A program made the translations under genes and the position numbers. Shown one piece after another: positions 19,408-26,653 of a DNA stretch of 64,000 nucleotides. The stretch's first letter is position 1; the number at the start of each line of letters is the position of its first letter. This stretch comes from Lachnospiraceae bacterium (lineage in GTDB: Bacteria > Bacillota > Clostridia > Lachnospirales > Lachnospiraceae): positions 172,374-236,373 of the forward strand of contig JAIEFE010000018.1 of the NCBI GenBank assembly GCA_029067085.1, written 5' to 3'. A model generated the notes under the pieces. That model was not told where the DNA came from. It made no database searches and was given only the letters and a program-made list of their open reading frames with translations.

Positions 19408-20721
19408 CTATTCAGTCAGATATCCCCTGTAATACTCATAATCCTGCACCCTGCAGTTCACCCGCAGCCGCACTCCTTCTTCCAGATACTCTGTCTTGTA
19501 CACCACCCCGTTTTCATTGAGATAGGAGACCGCCCTGCCGTCCGTGTAAGGAATCAGCAAAGTACACTCTTTATAGCCGTCGGACAGCTTTTTCTCGACC
19601 AGACGAATCAGCTCCTCCATTCCGATCCGTTCCTTCGCAGACAGATAGATGCTATTCTCCGACATGATGGGCAGATGCGTCTGTAGCTGTTCCGGCTCAA
19701 CGCCTGCCAGTCCCGGTATGTCATCAGGATGGACGAGATCGGCTTTGTTATATACATAGAGCATGGGAATACCGTCGGCTCCCAGCTCTTTCAGCGTGCG
19801 GTTCGTGACCGCGATCTGCTCCCTGTAATGCGGATCACTGTAATCTACTACCTGCAGAAGAACATCCGCTTCTCTCGCCTCCTCCAGTGTGGAATGAAAT
19901 GCCTCCACCAGATTATGAGGCAGTTTATGGATAAATCCCACCGTATCCGATAACAGAAAAGCATGATGATTCTCCGGCTCAATCTTACGCACAGTTGTGT
20001 CCAGCGTGGCAAAGAGCATATCCTTCTCCATCACCTTCTTCTCCTCCACGTCTATCTCGTCGCTTCCGTATAAGTCCAACATCGCATTCATCAGCGTTGA
20101 CTTGCCGGCATTGGTATAACCCACCAGCGCCACCCGCGGCATACCCGATCCCGCGCGGCGTTTGCGCTGTGTCATACGCTCCGAGCTCACTTCCTTTAAT
20201 TCCCGACGAAGCTCTGTCAATCGATGCTCCAGAACTCTTCTGTCCAGCTCCAGCTTCTTCTCGCCTGCACCCTTGTTACTCAGGGCGCCGCTTCCTCCGC
20301 CCTGTCTGCTGAGGGCAGCATGAAGCCCTACCAGCCTGGGCAGCATGTACTGCAGACTCGCCACCTCCACCTGCAGCTTCGCCTCCCGCGACCTCGCTCT
20401 GCTCGCAAAAATATCCAGAATCAATGTACTTCTGTCCAAAACCGGTTTGTCCAGACGCTCCTGCAGATTGCGGAGCTGCATCGGCGACAGGGAATTGTCA
20501 AATATTATGACATCTGCGTCACATTTCAATGCAAGTTCTTTGACTTCCTCCACCTTGCCGGTGCCGATATAGAACGCCTTGTGCACCGCCTCCAGCGTCT
20601 GACAGGCACTTCCCGCCACCTCCATATCACAGGCCTCCGCCAGCGCTCCAAGTTCCTCCAGCGAAAGCAGATAATCTTCTCCGTTGTTTAAATTGACTCC
20701 TACTAAAAATGCTTTTTCCAT
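19408..20721 (-). CDS. hflX: GTPase HflX
   Basis: 'VALVGYTNAGKSTLMNAML' (P-loop), 'LLSDTVGFIHKLPHNLVEAFHSTLEEAREADVLLQVVD', 'YVYNKADL', and an N-terminal HflX domain with 'GGGSGALSNKGAGEKKLELDRR'. Confidence 0.95.
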   Translation of the reverse strand: MEKAFLVGVNLNNGEDYLLSLEELGALAEACDMEVAGSACQTLEAVHKAFYIGTGKVEEVKELALKCDADVIIFDNSLSPMQLRNLQERLDKPVLDRSTLILDIFASRARSREAKLQVEVASLQYMLPRLVGLHAALSRQGGGSGALSNKGAGEKKLELDRRVLEHRLTELRRELKEVSSERMTQRKRRAGSGMPRVALVGYTNAGKSTLMNAMLDLYGSDEIDVEEKKVMEKDMLFATLDTTVRKIEPENHHAFLLSDTVGFIHKLPHNLVEAFHSTLEEAREADVLLQVVDYSDPHYREQIAVTNRTLKELGADGIPMLYVYNKADLVHPDDIPGLAGVEPEQLQTHLPIMSENSIYLSAKERIGMEELIRLVEKKLSDGYKECTLLIPYTDGRAVSYLNENGVVYKTEYLEEGVRLRVNCRVQDYEYYRGYLTE

Positions 20722-20744: not shown

Positions 20745-21524
20745 TTATTCCCTCCCCATTTTCCGATAACATCGGAATAAGCAAAGCCACTGGATGTAGA
20801 GCGTGACGCCGTCTTCATGCGCGTGGGGCAGTCCTGCTTGCTTCAGCGCTGTCGCCACCTGCCTTTTGGTAAGCGGTCCGCCCTTCCCGCATATGCCGTA
20901 TTTCATCGACCGCTCAATGAATTTCTGAAATGCATAGTACTCGTTTCTGCCAAGATCCGGCGCAGCTTTCTTTGCAAAATGCACCAGCACAGAATCGACT
21001 CCCGGCATCGGGTGAAAATCTTCCCTGCGAAAATGGTACCTGATCTTTATATCCCAATTTACCTTGAGCAGCAGAGATTTCTTTGTCTCTTTTGGCAGCC
21101 CCGCAAACCGCTTCGCCGCCCCTTTCTCCATCACCAGCCAGATATCCGTCGGCGGATTCGGCGCCTGTGTCAGCTTATTAATGATCTGTGTCGTGATGGA
21201 ATATGGGATATTTGCGAAAACCTTGTAAGTCCCCTTTGTCGGCAGATCATATTTCAGGAAATCCCCATATATCAACTTTAAATTGGAATACTTTGCAAGT
21301 CGTTTCCCTGCGCTGTCATATAGTTTTCGGTCAAGCTCCACCGAGCATACCATACCGGCTCTCCGGCACAGTTCTTCCGTCAGATGCCCCTTTCCGGTTC
21401 CTATTTCAAAAACCGTATCCTTTGCATGAAAATCTGCCAAGCCTATGATCCTGTGAATCAGTTTTGCATTTGTAATAAAATTCTGTGAATCTGATAGGTT
21501 CTGATACCTCCTGCTTTTTTGCAT
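20745..21524 (-). CDS. erm: Erm-type 23S rRNA (adenine-N6) methyltransferase
   Basis: 'DSQNFITNAKLIHRII', 'VFEIGTGKGHLTEEL' (SAM motif I) and 'VFANIPYSITTQIINKL' (NIPY). SQNF-type N-terminus rather than KsgA 'GQHFL'. Start set at 21524 by the AGAAGGAGG ribosome-binding site; the track ORF extends to 21722. Confidence 0.82.
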   Translation of the reverse strand: MQKSRRYQNLSDSQNFITNAKLIHRIIGLADFHAKDTVFEIGTGKGHLTEELCRRAGMVCSVELDRKLYDSAGKRLAKYSNLKLIYGDFLKYDLPTKGTYKVFANIPYSITTQIINKLTQAPNPPTDIWLVMEKGAAKRFAGLPKETKKSLLLKVNWDIKIRYHFRREDFHPMPGVDSVLVHFAKKAAPDLGRNEYYAFQKFIERSMKYGICGKGGPLTKRQVATALKQAGLPHAHEDGVTLYIQWLCLFRCYRKMGRE

Positions 21525-21555
21525 AGCGTGCCTCCTTCTTATTGTGTACTCCGCG

Positions 21556-21573
21556 ATCCGGACCAAACCGGAT
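21556..21573 (-). promoter_or_regulatory. Hairpin upstream of erm ribosome-binding site
   Basis: Perfect palindrome ATCCGG-tttggt-CCGGAT in the erm 5' UTR. Confidence 0.5.
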
Positions 21574-21596
21574 ACTTTCCGCAATGAAAAGGCAAT

Positions 21597-21635
21597 AAAA
21601 AAGCAGGCACAATTCCATAAACAGAATTTTCCTGC
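21597..21635 (-). terminator. Intrinsic terminator inside the erm leader (attenuator)
   Basis: Minus strand: GCAGGAAAATTC-tgtttatg-GAATTGTGCCTGC followed by TTTTTTATT, 70-110 nt upstream of the erm start codon. Confidence 0.75.
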
Positions 21636-21720
21636 TGAAACGATACTACAAAGCAAGCGGCACAGATCTGACCTCTGCCCTATCTGTCCGGTAAGCACGT
21701 GATAATTTTTATTCGCACGC

Positions 21721-21744
21721 AAAAAAATCCCACTTATATGAGAC
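21721..21744 (-). terminator. Second, weaker terminator-like hairpin in the erm leader
   Basis: Minus strand: TCTCA-TATAAG-TGGGA followed by TTTTTTT, just downstream of the leader ORF stop. Confidence 0.45.
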
Positions 21745-21759
21745 TATATATCTGCTTTT

Positions 21760-21807
21760 TTACTGCCCCTGTATACGGGTGCGAGCACAGCGAATAATAA
21801 TTCCCAC
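21760..21807 (-). CDS. Putative erm leader peptide (15 codons)
   Basis: GTG start with AAAGGTGG ribosome-binding site. Reads (M)GIIIRCARTRIQGQ-stop. Lies between the promoter and the attenuator. Confidence 0.65.
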   Translation of the reverse strand: MGIIIRCARTRIQGQ

Positions 21808-21851
21808 GCTAGAGCCACCTTTCTTCTTTGTATTTCTTTATGAATACGCTA

Positions 21852-21881
21852 ACTATAACATAGATGTTACCGGGTTGTCAA
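21852..21881 (-). promoter_or_regulatory. Sigma-A promoter of the erm leader transcript
   Basis: Minus strand TTGACA (21881-21876), 18-bp spacer, TATAGT (21857-21852). Overlaps the 3' end of the upstream permease gene. Confidence 0.75.
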
Positions 21882-22526
21882 TTTGAATCTCGCTGCTGCA
21901 TGGCCCCTCTTTCTGCAAACGCCCAAAGTAATGGCCATCAAAGCAACTGCTCCGAAAATCAGCCATCCGCTCTCATCAAATCTGCCCAGATAGCTCATCG
22001 GAAACAGAAAAAATTTTCCCACTTTATCTTTCATCCCATAATTAGCCAGATAATAAAGCATTGCCGCCATATATCCCACCGTAACATTGTTCGTAATACC
22101 TGCTGCCGCGAAACCGACTGCTCCCAGCAACCATGCGCTTGCGACGCCGCCGATCAGATGCTGCACCGTTACCTGACTTTCACATACTTTCATTAGCGAA
22201 ATAAAAAAAGTGATCAAAAGGATCATTGCCGCCACAGAATACAGAATCCGAATCAGCAAAATATTGAAATAATTGATCTTCTTTGAACAGACAACATCTC
22301 TGATATTATCATCCTGCTCCGGCAGGAAAATCGGGACAAGCAGCGTGACACCAATGAAACAAAGCAAAAATTCGATCGGTCTCGCCGCCTCAATGCCTTG
22401 CAGGGAAGTAATGTTAAACATCACCAATGTCAGGATCAACACTCCCAAAGCGGAGGCAAACGGCATAAGAAAATTATACTTTAAATTTACGCCGATTATT
22501 TTTCCATAGATTTCTTTTTCCATCAT
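21867..22526 (-). CDS. ABC transporter permease (ABC-2-like), second subunit
   Basis: About 220 aa, 6 hydrophobic segments, directly downstream of the permease/ATPase genes. Start at 22526 (AGGAAAGG ribosome-binding site); the track ORF starts at 22556. Confidence 0.7.
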   Translation of the reverse strand: MMEKEIYGKIIGVNLKYNFLMPFASALGVLILTLVMFNITSLQGIEAARPIEFLLCFIGVTLLVPIFLPEQDDNIRDVVCSKKINYFNILLIRILYSVAAMILLITFFISLMKVCESQVTVQHLIGGVASAWLLGAVGFAAAGITNNVTVGYMAAMLYYLANYGMKDKVGKFFLFPMSYLGRFDESGWLIFGAVALMAITLGVCRKRGHAAARFKLTTR

Positions 22527-23736
22527 AATTTCCTTTCCTCGCCTTCTCATATACAAATATCACCAATCCGATTAAAATAATCGACAAAATAAAATATCCT
22601 GTTCTGTTCCAGATAAAATCATGAAACTGTTCCCGGAAAAGCCTCGTTTTTCCTAAATTGTTATGGCGGATAACTAATGTATATTTTGTAATGCTCCCGG
22701 TAAGCTCATTCTTCCCCAATGCGACATACCACCAGACACCCTGCACAAAGATAGCCAGAAGCGGCGAGAGCAGCTCAGATATCAATGCTCCCACGCTGAC
22801 TACGATCGTAATACTCGGAAGCAGCCACATGATCACCAAACCGGCAGCTTCTCCAAAATAGATATTTTTTTCAGGATAAAGGTTATGCAGCCCCATCATG
22901 ACATGGAAGAAAGTCAATGCCACGGGCACGGCCATGCAGCAGACCAGTGCCAGATATCTTGTGATGATCAGCTTTGCCGAAGAAATTTTCCGGCTGTAGA
23001 TCAACTGCTCCATCCGGCTCCTTTTATCCATCTGCCAGAGTCCCACACACACAAATATCGGTATGATCGCCAGATCGATTCCCAGATAGTCACAATAAAG
23101 CCGCATATATGCTTTTGCAAAATTATGTTCATCCATCAGTTCTTCATATTCTGTAAGTGCATCTTCATATGTCATAGGAACCGTGGAAAAATTACTTACC
23201 AGATATTTTTCACTGTATTTAGATCCTTTCCCGATGATCTCGTCCGCCTGCGTCATTAATTCTTTAAAATGCTCATAGGAAATATCTTCTGACAAATGAT
23301 ATTCCGGAAGCACCTTATCCTTATAAGCCATTATCATATTTCCGTTTTCATCCGTCTGCCCATAGTATCCTCCCGCTTCATATTCTGTGAAATGATCCAA
23401 TTCTGACTTGGTAATATCCGTCAACTCTTCGATAATCTCTGCAATTTTGACAGTATCGCTTTCCTTTAACTTGACTTCTTTATAAAACATAAACGGATAA
23501 GCGGTATAACTTCCTGCCAGATATTCCGAAATAAGACTTTCCACAGCGGCTGGCATTAATACTTCCGGCACCTCTTTTTCAATACTTCCATAATAGCTAT
23601 TTTCCGGTGACGGCCGCCTGATCGGGGCGTCCAGCTCTGTTGCAAATTGTGAGACATACATTGCAAAAATGACTGCCGCATATAGTACGAACGTCAGGGA
23701 GCATATTGTTTTCTTACATTCTTTTAAAAATAACAT
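22474..23736 (-). CDS. ABC transporter permease, first subunit
   Basis: 420 aa. One N-terminal TM, an extracytoplasmic domain of about 170 aa, then multiple TMs. Confidence 0.7.
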   Translation of the reverse strand: MLFLKECKKTICSLTFVLYAAVIFAMYVSQFATELDAPIRRPSPENSYYGSIEKEVPEVLMPAAVESLISEYLAGSYTAYPFMFYKEVKLKESDTVKIAEIIEELTDITKSELDHFTEYEAGGYYGQTDENGNMIMAYKDKVLPEYHLSEDISYEHFKELMTQADEIIGKGSKYSEKYLVSNFSTVPMTYEDALTEYEELMDEHNFAKAYMRLYCDYLGIDLAIIPIFVCVGLWQMDKRSRMEQLIYSRKISSAKLIITRYLALVCCMAVPVALTFFHVMMGLHNLYPEKNIYFGEAAGLVIMWLLPSITIVVSVGALISELLSPLLAIFVQGVWWYVALGKNELTGSITKYTLVIRHNNLGKTRLFREQFHDFIWNRTGYFILSIILIGLVIFVYEKARKGNYDGKRNLWKNNRRKFKV

Positions 23737-23769
23737 GATAATCTTTAAACTCCTCTCCGAGTGTTCTAT

Positions 23770-24663
23770 CTAATCTTCTTCATTCAAACTGCACCCGTTC
23801 TGGTACAGGCAATACATATAGGCATCCTCGCAGTTGGGTTCTGTTTCCGTACCATAAATCTTTTCCGGCCTTTTGTCAGAAATAAACCGAATGTTGATAT
23901 TTTCACCCTGCTTCAGCATACCGATCACGATATAAGCTGCCTTCACTTCTCCCAACTGCTGTTTATTAACATTCGCCGTATATACCTTTCCTCTGGCATT
24001 TTCGAGTAGTTTGCTCACCGTTCCTCTCCACAGGATCTCACCTTCATTCATAATGGCAATGTTTTCACAGGTTGCCTCGATATCTCCTACTATATGCGTC
24101 GATAAGATCACAATTCTTTCTTCCGCCACTTCACATAGAAGATTGCGGAAACGGATTCTCTCTTCCGGATCAAGTCCCGCTGTCGGTTCATCGACGATCA
24201 AAACTCCGGGATCATGCAAAAGAGCCTGCGCGATTCCCAACCGTCTTTTCATGCCGCCCGACAGCTTTTTGACCTTCGTGTGCATCTGCTCATTCAAATT
24301 TACTTTCTTGATGAGTAACTCTATCCTCTCTTTTCTATCTCTTTTTGCCATTCCGGAAAGGGTTCCCAAATAATCCAGACACTCATACACCGTCATCAGC
24401 GGATACATGGAAAAATCCTGCGGCAGATAGCCGATCATGCCCCGGATTTCTTTCGCGTTTTCAATGGGAACGCCGCACACACGGATTTCTCCCGACTGTT
24501 TTCCGAGAAGCGTCGCCAACGTTTTCATAAGTGTTGTCTTACCTGCCCCGTTCCTCCCAAGCAGCCCGAACATTCCCTGCGGAATGACCAGATCCACATC
24601 TTTCAGTGCATGTTTCTTTCCGTAAAATTTATTTACCTGACTGATCTTGATCTCGTTTTCCAT
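23770..24663 (-). CDS. ABC transporter ATP-binding protein
   Basis: 'GLLGRNGAGKTTLMKTL' (Walker A), 'LSGGMKRRLGIAQALLHDPGVLIVDEPTAGLDPEER'. Start set at MENEIK (24663); the track ORF extends to 24756. Confidence 0.92.
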   Translation of the reverse strand: MENEIKISQVNKFYGKKHALKDVDLVIPQGMFGLLGRNGAGKTTLMKTLATLLGKQSGEIRVCGVPIENAKEIRGMIGYLPQDFSMYPLMTVYECLDYLGTLSGMAKRDRKERIELLIKKVNLNEQMHTKVKKLSGGMKRRLGIAQALLHDPGVLIVDEPTAGLDPEERIRFRNLLCEVAEERIVILSTHIVGDIEATCENIAIMNEGEILWRGTVSKLLENARGKVYTANVNKQQLGEVKAAYIVIGMLKQGENINIRFISDKRPEKIYGTETEPNCEDAYMYCLYQNGCSLNEED

Positions 24664-24791
24664 TGTCACAGATACTCCTTTCCTGACAGTAAACCAAAAA
24701 TGGTACAGCGATACTCCTCTGATCACTGCACCATTATCATAAAAAACAATTTTCAATTTTTTATCAACTGTTTATTGATTATTTCTTAATT

Positions 24792-25991
24792 TTATTCACT
24801 CTCCCTAAAACCGACTGTTACCTTCCCGCCGTTCCTGCCGTTTTCAATGACCAGCTCTCCATGACACTTTTCACATATGATCTTGCAAATATACAGCCCC
24901 AAACCGAAATGCTCCTTTTCTTCCCGCCTATCCCTGTAAAACGGCTTTACTGCCTGCTGCAAAGCTTCCTCAGTAAAGCCCTCTCCGTCGTCTTCTACCG
25001 ATATCTCAAGTACATGATCAAATGTGCTGATGTTTATCTCTATTTTATCTTTTGCATACCGGGCCGCATTGGAAACCAGATTTTCATACACCTCCAATAC
25101 CAGCTCCTCATCCACGTAAAGCTTCTCTGCATCCGAATCCGTTTGATACGAAATCTGCATATCTTTCGCAAGCATTTTACTTATCTGCGCACACTTATCC
25201 AAAAATTCTTTCAAATTTACTTCCCCGGGTTTGGGTTCGATATCTTCTAATTTCTGTACAGCGCTCATTTTCTGTGTATAGTTTTCCAGCCTGTCAATCT
25301 GCCCTTTCATCATTTCCAGTATATGCATTGTTTTTTCTTCCGACACTTCCCCGCTTGGTATATATTTTTCCAGCAGATCCCTATATCCTTTTATCACAGT
25401 GATCGGCGTCCGCATATCATGAGAAAAGGCTGCATTTAACTTTTTCCGTTCATCCAGCATTCTCCACATTTCCTTATTATTTTGGTACAATGCATCTCTC
25501 ATTTTTTCAAAGGACTGACATAACCGACCCAGTTCATTCTTTTTCCTGTATGCAATATGAAAGTCCAAACTGCTGTCCGCAATCTTTTCTGATGCTTCCA
25601 GCAATATTGTAATCGGCTCCTCCAATTCTCTTCTATAAAATAGAATACCTACCAGCATAACCACCAATAATATCCACAAGGGTATTAAAACAAGCTGCGC
25701 ACCGCTGATGATCTGAAATCCTATGAAATGGATTGTATCATCATACATAGCACGTTTTCTCTCATACATATTATATATATCTTTATTTCCATCATAGTCG
25801 ATTACAACTGCATATTCAGCATAAGATTCGGATGAATCCGTATCTGCATATTTCTCTTCGTACCAGGTCTGCAGATAATTTGTGGAATAACCGATTGCAG
25901 CAGCCCCCACATAAGACAGAATGATGCAGATCGGTATATATTTGATGAAGATCCATTTGATGGATTTTGATTTTTCTCTTATCTGACCCAT
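24792..25991 (-). CDS. Sensor histidine kinase
   Basis: Two TMs flanking a short extracytoplasmic loop, HAMP-like region, 'FSHDMRTPITVIKGY' H-box, 'NLVSNAARYA' N-box, and 'GLGLYICK'. Confidence 0.92.
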   Translation of the reverse strand: MGQIREKSKSIKWIFIKYIPICIILSYVGAAAIGYSTNYLQTWYEEKYADTDSSESYAEYAVVIDYDGNKDIYNMYERKRAMYDDTIHFIGFQIISGAQLVLIPLWILLVVMLVGILFYRRELEEPITILLEASEKIADSSLDFHIAYRKKNELGRLCQSFEKMRDALYQNNKEMWRMLDERKKLNAAFSHDMRTPITVIKGYRDLLEKYIPSGEVSEEKTMHILEMMKGQIDRLENYTQKMSAVQKLEDIEPKPGEVNLKEFLDKCAQISKMLAKDMQISYQTDSDAEKLYVDEELVLEVYENLVSNAARYAKDKIEINISTFDHVLEISVEDDGEGFTEEALQQAVKPFYRDRREEKEHFGLGLYICKIICEKCHGELVIENGRNGGKVTVGFRESE

Positions 25992-26653
25992 TTATATCCC
26001 ATCCCCCAGACTGTCTCTAAATGATAATCTTCTTCCACCTCTTTCAACTTGCTGCGAATACGCCTGATATGTTCCGCGACAACAGAAGCATCTCCCTTTG
26101 CATCATAACCCCATATTTTTTCGTAGATGCGCTCTTTATCAAATACCTGCCCCATATTCAGGGATAGCAATTCAAGTATTTCAAATTCTTTTTTAGCAAA
26201 ATTCATGGTCTTACCGTCTACAGTAATTGTTTTTGCGGAATAGTCAATGACCAGTCTGCCAAAAAAGCGGACGTTTGCTTCCGTATGATTCCTATGCTCT
26301 CTCCGGATATGCGCTTCCACTCTTGCACCAAGTTCATCGATTGAAAACGGCTTGATGATGTAGTCATCTCCTCCTGATGCAAAACCTTTGATCTTATCAC
26401 TGTCCTCTGTTTTCGCTGTCAAAAACAAGATCGGACAGGCAACATATTCCCGAATCTTTTCGCACACCGTTATTCCATCCATATCCGGCATATCGACATC
26501 TAATAAAATCAAATCCGGTTTCCGGGAAATCATATTGATTGCTTCTGTTCCGCTGTATGCAGTTATGGTTTCATAATGATTGAGTTCAAAATAATCTTTT
26601 AACAGGCTCACGACATCTCTTTCGTCATCTACGATCAGTAACTTGTATGCCAT
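25979..26653 (-). CDS. OmpR-family response regulator
   Basis: 'LLIVDDERDVVSLLKDYF', 'LILLDVDMPDMDG', and a C-terminal winged helix 'EKIWGYDAKGDASVVAEHIRRIRSKL'. Overlaps the kinase gene by 13 bp. Confidence 0.94.
   Translation of the reverse strand: MAYKLLIVDDERDVVSLLKDYFELNHYETITAYSGTEAINMISRKPDLILLDVDMPDMDGITVCEKIREYVACPILFLTAKTEDSDKIKGFASGGDDYIIKPFSIDELGARVEAHIRREHRNHTEANVRFFGRLVIDYSAKTITVDGKTMNFAKKEFEILELLSLNMGQVFDKERIYEKIWGYDAKGDASVVAEHIRRIRSKLKEVEEDYHLETVWGMGYKWVR

Follow-up and report, generated by a model that had tools for sequence, protein, structure and literature searches.

The window analyzed here, a 64,000-nucleotide stretch of Lachnospiraceae DNA, very probably carries a ribosome-mediated transcription attenuator that would induce erm and hflX when a macrolide-type drug stalls a ribosome at an Arg-Thr-Arg (R-T-R) motif in a leader peptide. 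Comparative analysis and folding models point to a real, well-conserved, probably drug-sensing element, and it was through comparison of sequences that the leader, the two competing helices P1 and AT2, the gene order, and the gene families downstream were established. With somewhat better than even confidence, we further propose that a single uncatalogued RNA family has been reused before erm, hflX, and two Mef-type pumps, one of them Mef(A)-like. In this reading, the leader ORF would be both the peptide drug sensor and a strand in each of the two competing helices, and in this genus the element would have brought the cell's only HflX under the control of a drug, in many cases downstream of erm in the same operon. 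The mechanism is already known from erm(K), mef(E), tlrB, hflXr, and vmlR, and each piece has precedent; what is new is that the RNA element has not been catalogued, that several gene families share it, and that erm is paired with hflX.

The original prediction described a control region composed of a promoter, a ribosome-binding site, a GTG-started leader, two terminators, and a palindrome. All of these parts were present on the minus strand at matching coordinates, and the reading was largely right, though incomplete in that it missed P1 and AT2. The features of the locus are as follows:

21852-21881, minus strand: sigma-A promoter TTGACA-N18-TATAGT (11/12 matches, extended TG before the -10; aligned in orthologues)
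21815-21822, minus strand: leader Shine-Dalgarno sequence AAAGGTGG, near-invariant in the orthologue alignment
21760-21807, minus strand: leader ORF VGIIIRCARTRIQGQ, 15 codons, GTG start at 21807, TAA stop at 21762-21760
21785-21802, minus strand: 5' strand of P1, leader codons 3-8 (from covariation)
21783-21775, minus strand: R-T-R, leader codons 9-11 (from the codon table)
21765-21783, minus strand: P2, a small hairpin (CGCACCC..GGGGC) within the leader ORF (from the RNAalifold consensus)
21752-21769, minus strand: 5' arm of AT2, GGGGCAGTAAAAAAGCAG, the putative antiterminator strand, formed by the end of the leader ORF and adjoining bases
21721-21743, minus strand: T1 hairpin (TCTCAT..GTGGGA with T7), either a weak terminator or a pause site for RNA polymerase
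21704-21720, minus strand: 3' strand of P1, the conserved element GCGTGCGAATAAAAATT immediately 3' of the first U-tract (from covariation)
21597-21636, minus strand: T2, predicted intrinsic terminator (AGCAGG..CCTGCT with T6)
21589-21606, minus strand: 3' arm of AT2, CTGCTTTTTTATTGCCTT, comprising the T2 3' arm, U-tract, and next bases
21531-21537, minus strand: erm Shine-Dalgarno sequence AAGGAGG, conserved
20745-21524, minus strand: erm, putative 23S rRNA adenine N6-methyltransferase, 259 aa, ATG at 21524, stop at 20745
19408-20721, minus strand: hflX, ribosome-splitting GTPase, 437 aa, with its own Shine-Dalgarno sequence

Immediately upstream on the same strand (21867-26653) are ORFs for a response regulator, a histidine kinase, an ABC ATPase, and two permease-like proteins, and the -35 of the erm promoter overlaps the final codons of the second permease-like ORF. 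A generic terminator scan of the window flagged neither T1 nor T2 (0 found versus 0.6 expected in shuffles); viewed in a single sequence the hairpins are therefore not beyond chance, and the case for them rests instead on conservation and comparison. The leader Shine-Dalgarno sequence, the GTG-started leader, both U-tailed hairpins, and the element following the first U-tract were conserved in 19/19 of the genomes first examined, as was the promoter in nearly all. The control region was also recovered at dozens more loci in a covariance model search, and comparison of the element with Rfam covariance models gave no match, either at gathering thresholds or at E up to 1. The palindrome ATCCGG..CCGGAT was the weakest item of the original prediction: it is present, but the small hairpin recurs in only some relatives and nothing shows a role for it, so we dropped it as a functional element.

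As in macrolide-induced attenuators, a short ORF with a Shine-Dalgarno sequence and a +X+ motif precedes the resistance gene, and this ORF is presumably translated. The leader accompanies every erm orthologue examined in the genus and is conserved at dozens of Lachnospiraceae erm orthologues, with peptides that include VGIIIRCARTRIQGQ, VGVFIQCARTRYQGQ, VFSTFIRIARIRIQGR, VGVCNCRKSRIQGQ, MINCVVRIRTRIQGR, and VGICVIRIRIQGQ. Across 48 distinct leaders, Arg at the basic positions of R-x-R is encoded by CGT, CGC, CGG, or CGA, with two occurrences of Lys and one of His, and all four Ala codons are used at the Ala just before the motif; these synonymous Arg and Ala codons argue for selection on the peptide. 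The codons of the leader tail, by contrast, are kept (GGG in 44/44, CAG in 40/44). In four species (L011, L037, L046, and L048), the peptide ends as ARTR-stop, directly after R-T-R, and GGGGCAG is still kept beyond the stop codon, which argues that the RNA itself is under selection. Shorter leaders, with RxR at or close to their end, occur in more divergent erm orthologues (MGIIIRIR, MYSIRLRKY, and MTHSMRIRK, for example). With its basic positions kept at the peptide level and divergent leaders ending in RxR, the motif is well suited to the +X+ arrest role previously proposed for it. Minimal RxR leaders with their own U-tracts downstream were also seen at seven distant erm orthologues (L074, L075, L077, L080, L081, L089, and L094), and MTHSMRIRK, itself from a distant orthologue, is close to the ErmDL leader.

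An Arg-rich leader could alternatively sense charged tRNA-Arg rather than a drug, and three of the 15 codons here are for Arg, all inside six codons, as in amino-acid attenuators. Lys nevertheless stands in place of Arg in two leaders, several of the short divergent leaders hold just two Arg residues, as RxR, and none of the genes found behind the leader (erm, hflX, and Mef-type pumps) belongs to arginine metabolism. For these reasons we consider arginine-starvation attenuation very unlikely and favor a leader that senses a drug.

We then considered the RNA helices that could form the switch. P1 was found in the consensus fold, in which leader codons 3-8 pair with bases just past the T1 U-tract. 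Fifteen cells of this helix had changed on both sides, versus 4.7 (SD 1.7) in shuffles, and slid-register controls were all far worse than the true register. In permutation tests on 28 non-redundant leaders (20,000 permutations each; related sequences are not independent), matched P1 duplexes gave -21.3 kcal/mol versus -15.6 (SD 0.6) for swapped strands, and 0/20,000 permutations were as good. Covariation was also present for AT2, weaker than for P1: matched duplexes gave -20.8 versus -19.4 (SD 0.44) kcal/mol, with 12/20,000 permutations as good. In the window, AT2 is an 18 bp duplex of -26.1 kcal/mol. As negative controls, the P1 strand against the T2 arm was marginal (684/20,000) and the AT2 arm against the post-U element gave no signal (11,200/20,000). 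Because the AT2 arm lies within the P1 loop and its partner outside, the two together would need a pseudoknot; P1 and AT2 therefore cannot coexist, and a mutually exclusive terminator/antiterminator arrangement is predicted. P2 hides the start of the AT2 arm, and its pairs are kept, without compensatory changes. Both of the U-tailed hairpins that had been called a weak and a strong terminator are conserved, but T1 may, by analogy with the known systems, serve for pausing instead of termination; in three hflX leaders its U-tract is interrupted (TTTCTTT) and still fits the TTNTTT pause motif.

Most studied erm genes use translation attenuation (PMC4335068), and if the leader governed only access to the erm start, as in ermC and ermB, the hairpins would not be terminators. 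The window offers a candidate pairing of this kind, since TAGCGTG at the leader start and CACGCTA at the erm start are able to pair over 7 bp. This pairing, however, lacks covariation (1,958/20,000 permutations were as good) and was rejected as a translational lock, and no conserved hairpin was found over the erm Shine-Dalgarno sequence. Moreover, U-tracts are kept at both hairpins, and the conserved AT2 pairing aims at the T2 3' arm and U-tract. We regard translation attenuation as the only mode of control as unlikely. Nor does a vestigial leader, with erm constitutive or silent, seem at all probable. Genome G049 does have a decayed, deleted erm behind an intact leader (L151), and an hflX leader in G053 has lost its R-x-R codons; set against these cases, selection on the switch is shown by the covariation, by synonymous changes among the codons, and by preservation of the element across dozens of species. 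Transcription attenuation by a functional element remains our preferred reading.

That the layout implies relief of termination had been suggested earlier, and covariation of P1 and AT2 together with ribosome-masked folding gives this suggestion the form of an explicit switch. When a footprint of ~15 nt on each side of the P-site was masked, the window RNA was predicted to adopt the antiterminator with codons 1-11 in the P-site and the terminator with codons 12-15; this change between codons 11 and 12 places the boundary at the R-T-R motif. With the ribosome placed one to seven codons upstream of the middle residue, antitermination was predicted for 41-44 of the 48 leaders; the number fell to 30 when it sat on the middle residue, to 24 on the second Arg, and to 0-2 at later positions, such that the predicted preference flips across the RxR position. 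A static stall mask flipped just 30/48 leaders, and some hflX leaders fold differently. With no ribosome, the window RNA prefers the antiterminator at equilibrium (0.91 versus 0.09), so the model requires either that P1 form first, during transcription, or that the leader be translated. When the ribosome sits on the stop codon, its mask directly covers the AT2 arm, and the folding result for that state is thus partly built in.

We propose that, without drug, the ribosome would clear R-T-R and complete the leader, leaving codons 3-8 free to pair as P1 with the element past the T1 U-tract. P1 would enclose the antiterminator arm, T2 would form, and transcription would end before erm. With drug, the ribosome would stall with Thr10 in the P-site and Arg11 in the A-site, covering part of the P1 5' strand and leaving the antiterminator arm mostly free; the freed arm would pair with the T2 3' arm and U-tract, T2 would not form, and erm and hflX would be transcribed. 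T1 would most likely serve either to pause the polymerase so that it stays coordinated with the ribosome on the leader, or to terminate weakly ahead of T2. We infer that stalling depends on drug and that terminated and read-through transcripts would be the two products. On ErmDL, the ribosome arrests when the middle RLR residue occupies the P-site (PMC8298421). The model predicts that the stall codon decides termination, with its boundary at R-T-R, and the switch is simple enough for base-pair-by-base-pair testing.

The product of the first controlled gene was read as an Erm-type methyltransferase, and profile searches bear this out. It scored 210.7 bits against NCBIfam Erm23S_rRNA_broad, 1.3 bits below the cutoff of 212, versus 124.9 against KsgA, and two orthologues exceeded the cutoff (219.8 and 222.4 bits). 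The protein also matched Pfam RrnaAD and contains the SAM/catalytic motifs SQNF, EIGTGKGH, and NIPY; among the six compared, SQNF, EIGTGKGH, and NIP are invariant, and the next residue is Y or F. A separate KsgA-like gene, 34% identical to the window Erm, lies in the same genome (G000:C20). A2058 would be the expected methylation target. Membership in a named Erm class requires at least 80% identity, and under this rule the window Erm falls in none of the named classes compared (A, B, C, F, G, and others). The comparison proposed earlier as a gauge of novelty indicates a divergent protein, about 35-37% identical to plasmid-borne and solved Erm proteins, with a best match of 37.5% among plasmid records and of 33.7% among phages; of the solved structures, those of ErmC' and ErmB are nearest. 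Among named Erm classes that have an NCBIfam model, the set covered by this comparison, all were far below cutoff. Orthologues at 66-87% identity are found within the genus, with one further case in a different family, and a scan of named genomes returned 80 relatives, mostly from MAGs labelled Lachnospiraceae or other Clostridia. The locus as a whole points to antibiotic-inducible chromosomal erm in gut Lachnospiraceae, and for resistance surveillance it flags a pool of erm genes that are probably inducible and only distantly related to those in named classes.

The original prediction put erm under the leader. It missed the pairing of erm with hflX, and also that the leader recurs before hflX and Mef-type pumps. 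In the window, hflX is co-directional with erm and starts 23 bases past the erm stop, forming a probable operon in which the two genes would be co-transcribed. Its product matched TIGR03156 with 436 bits and is the sole HflX above cutoff in its genome (G000, 84% complete). Across the genus, 68/77 genomes carry an HflX, single copy in each, and a duplicate beside the housekeeping copy, as expected of HflXr, was found neither in G000 nor in any of these 68. The covariance model located the leader in 36/77 genus genomes. The order leader-erm-hflX occurs in nine (G000, G018, G022, G042, G043, G045, G056, G100, and G101), and in eight the leader directly precedes hflX with no erm between (G009, G013, G023, G031, G032, G051, G053, and G111), G013 carrying an additional leader-erm elsewhere. 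In the remaining 19, the leader is away from hflX, with erm behind it where inspected. R-x-R is kept in seven of the eight hflX-only leaders, consistent with hflX being under the control of an RxR-leader attenuator. The eighth, in G053 (L150), has lost the RCARTR codons (VGIFIQGR) and keeps the post-U element; it is possibly a natural non-inducible variant. One sensor would in this way couple target modification by Erm with ribosome rescue by HflX. Among the papers available, a literature search on hflX with macrolides in Lachnospiraceae found none.

Several known systems resemble this locus in part. As cited in PMC4335068, erm(K) is an attenuator with a +X+ leader and two adjacent terminators, and erm(D) and mef(E) also have +X+ leaders. 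The erm(K)/erm(D) systems of Bacillus (leader MTHSMRLR...) share with the window an Erm gene, a +X+ leader, transcription attenuation, and two terminators, and the likeness extends to the MTHSMRIRK leader of a divergent orthologue; unlike them, the window leader ends in xQGQ/R, has the P1 enclosure helix, and has hflX alongside erm. The mef(E)/mel system (leader MTASMRLR) shares an RxR leader and a long-range AU-rich antiterminator, built from the 18-base repeats dIR1/dIR2 (PMC4335068), but differs in gene and sequence, and the antiterminator arm of the window begins within the leader ORF. Listeria hflXr (lmo0762, rli80; RLR leader), which is induced by lincomycin and erythromycin, likewise places HflX under RxR-leader transcription attenuation (PMC6310831). 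Listeria also carries another hflX that is not a resistance gene; hflX here has one copy and, in the window, comes after erm. B. subtilis tlrB (yxjB; leader MIIQFIRYR) combines a 23S rRNA methylase, a leader ending in RYR, and a terminator with NusG-dependent polymerase pausing (PMC6851288). Unlike the window erm, tlrB encodes RlmA-II, which methylates G748, and its hairpin hiding the Shine-Dalgarno sequence is unsupported at the window locus. B. subtilis vmlR shares the logic of a uORF-containing anti-antiterminator, pause hairpin, terminator, and antiterminator (PMC9226507), but its uORF has three codons and senses initiation stalling, and protection is by an ABC-F protein. In the literature compared, we found no description of P1, of the leader family or its use before more than one kind of gene, or of erm and hflX together behind a single leader.

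Beyond the genus, near-identical copies of the leader precede a Mef(A)-like pump, which scored 542 bits against the Mef(A) model, below the cutoff of 675. The leader of this pump, VLICVR-stop, is without R-x-R and keeps the P1 and AT2 pairings, and another Mef-type pump is preceded by the leader MLICMRK. Wider covariance searches at the level of the order and class recovered the window, Mef-type leaders, a single erm locus that was already known, and nothing further; a search of a plasmid collection with the Mef leader gave no match. The near-identity of the leader-Mef(A)-like copies suggests a mobile element, and the sharing of the leader suggests that leader and attenuator can be transferred as a cassette from one family of resistance genes to another. 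The leader and Mef(A)-like pump were near-identical in many genera and in more than one family (L133-L145 and L170-L172).
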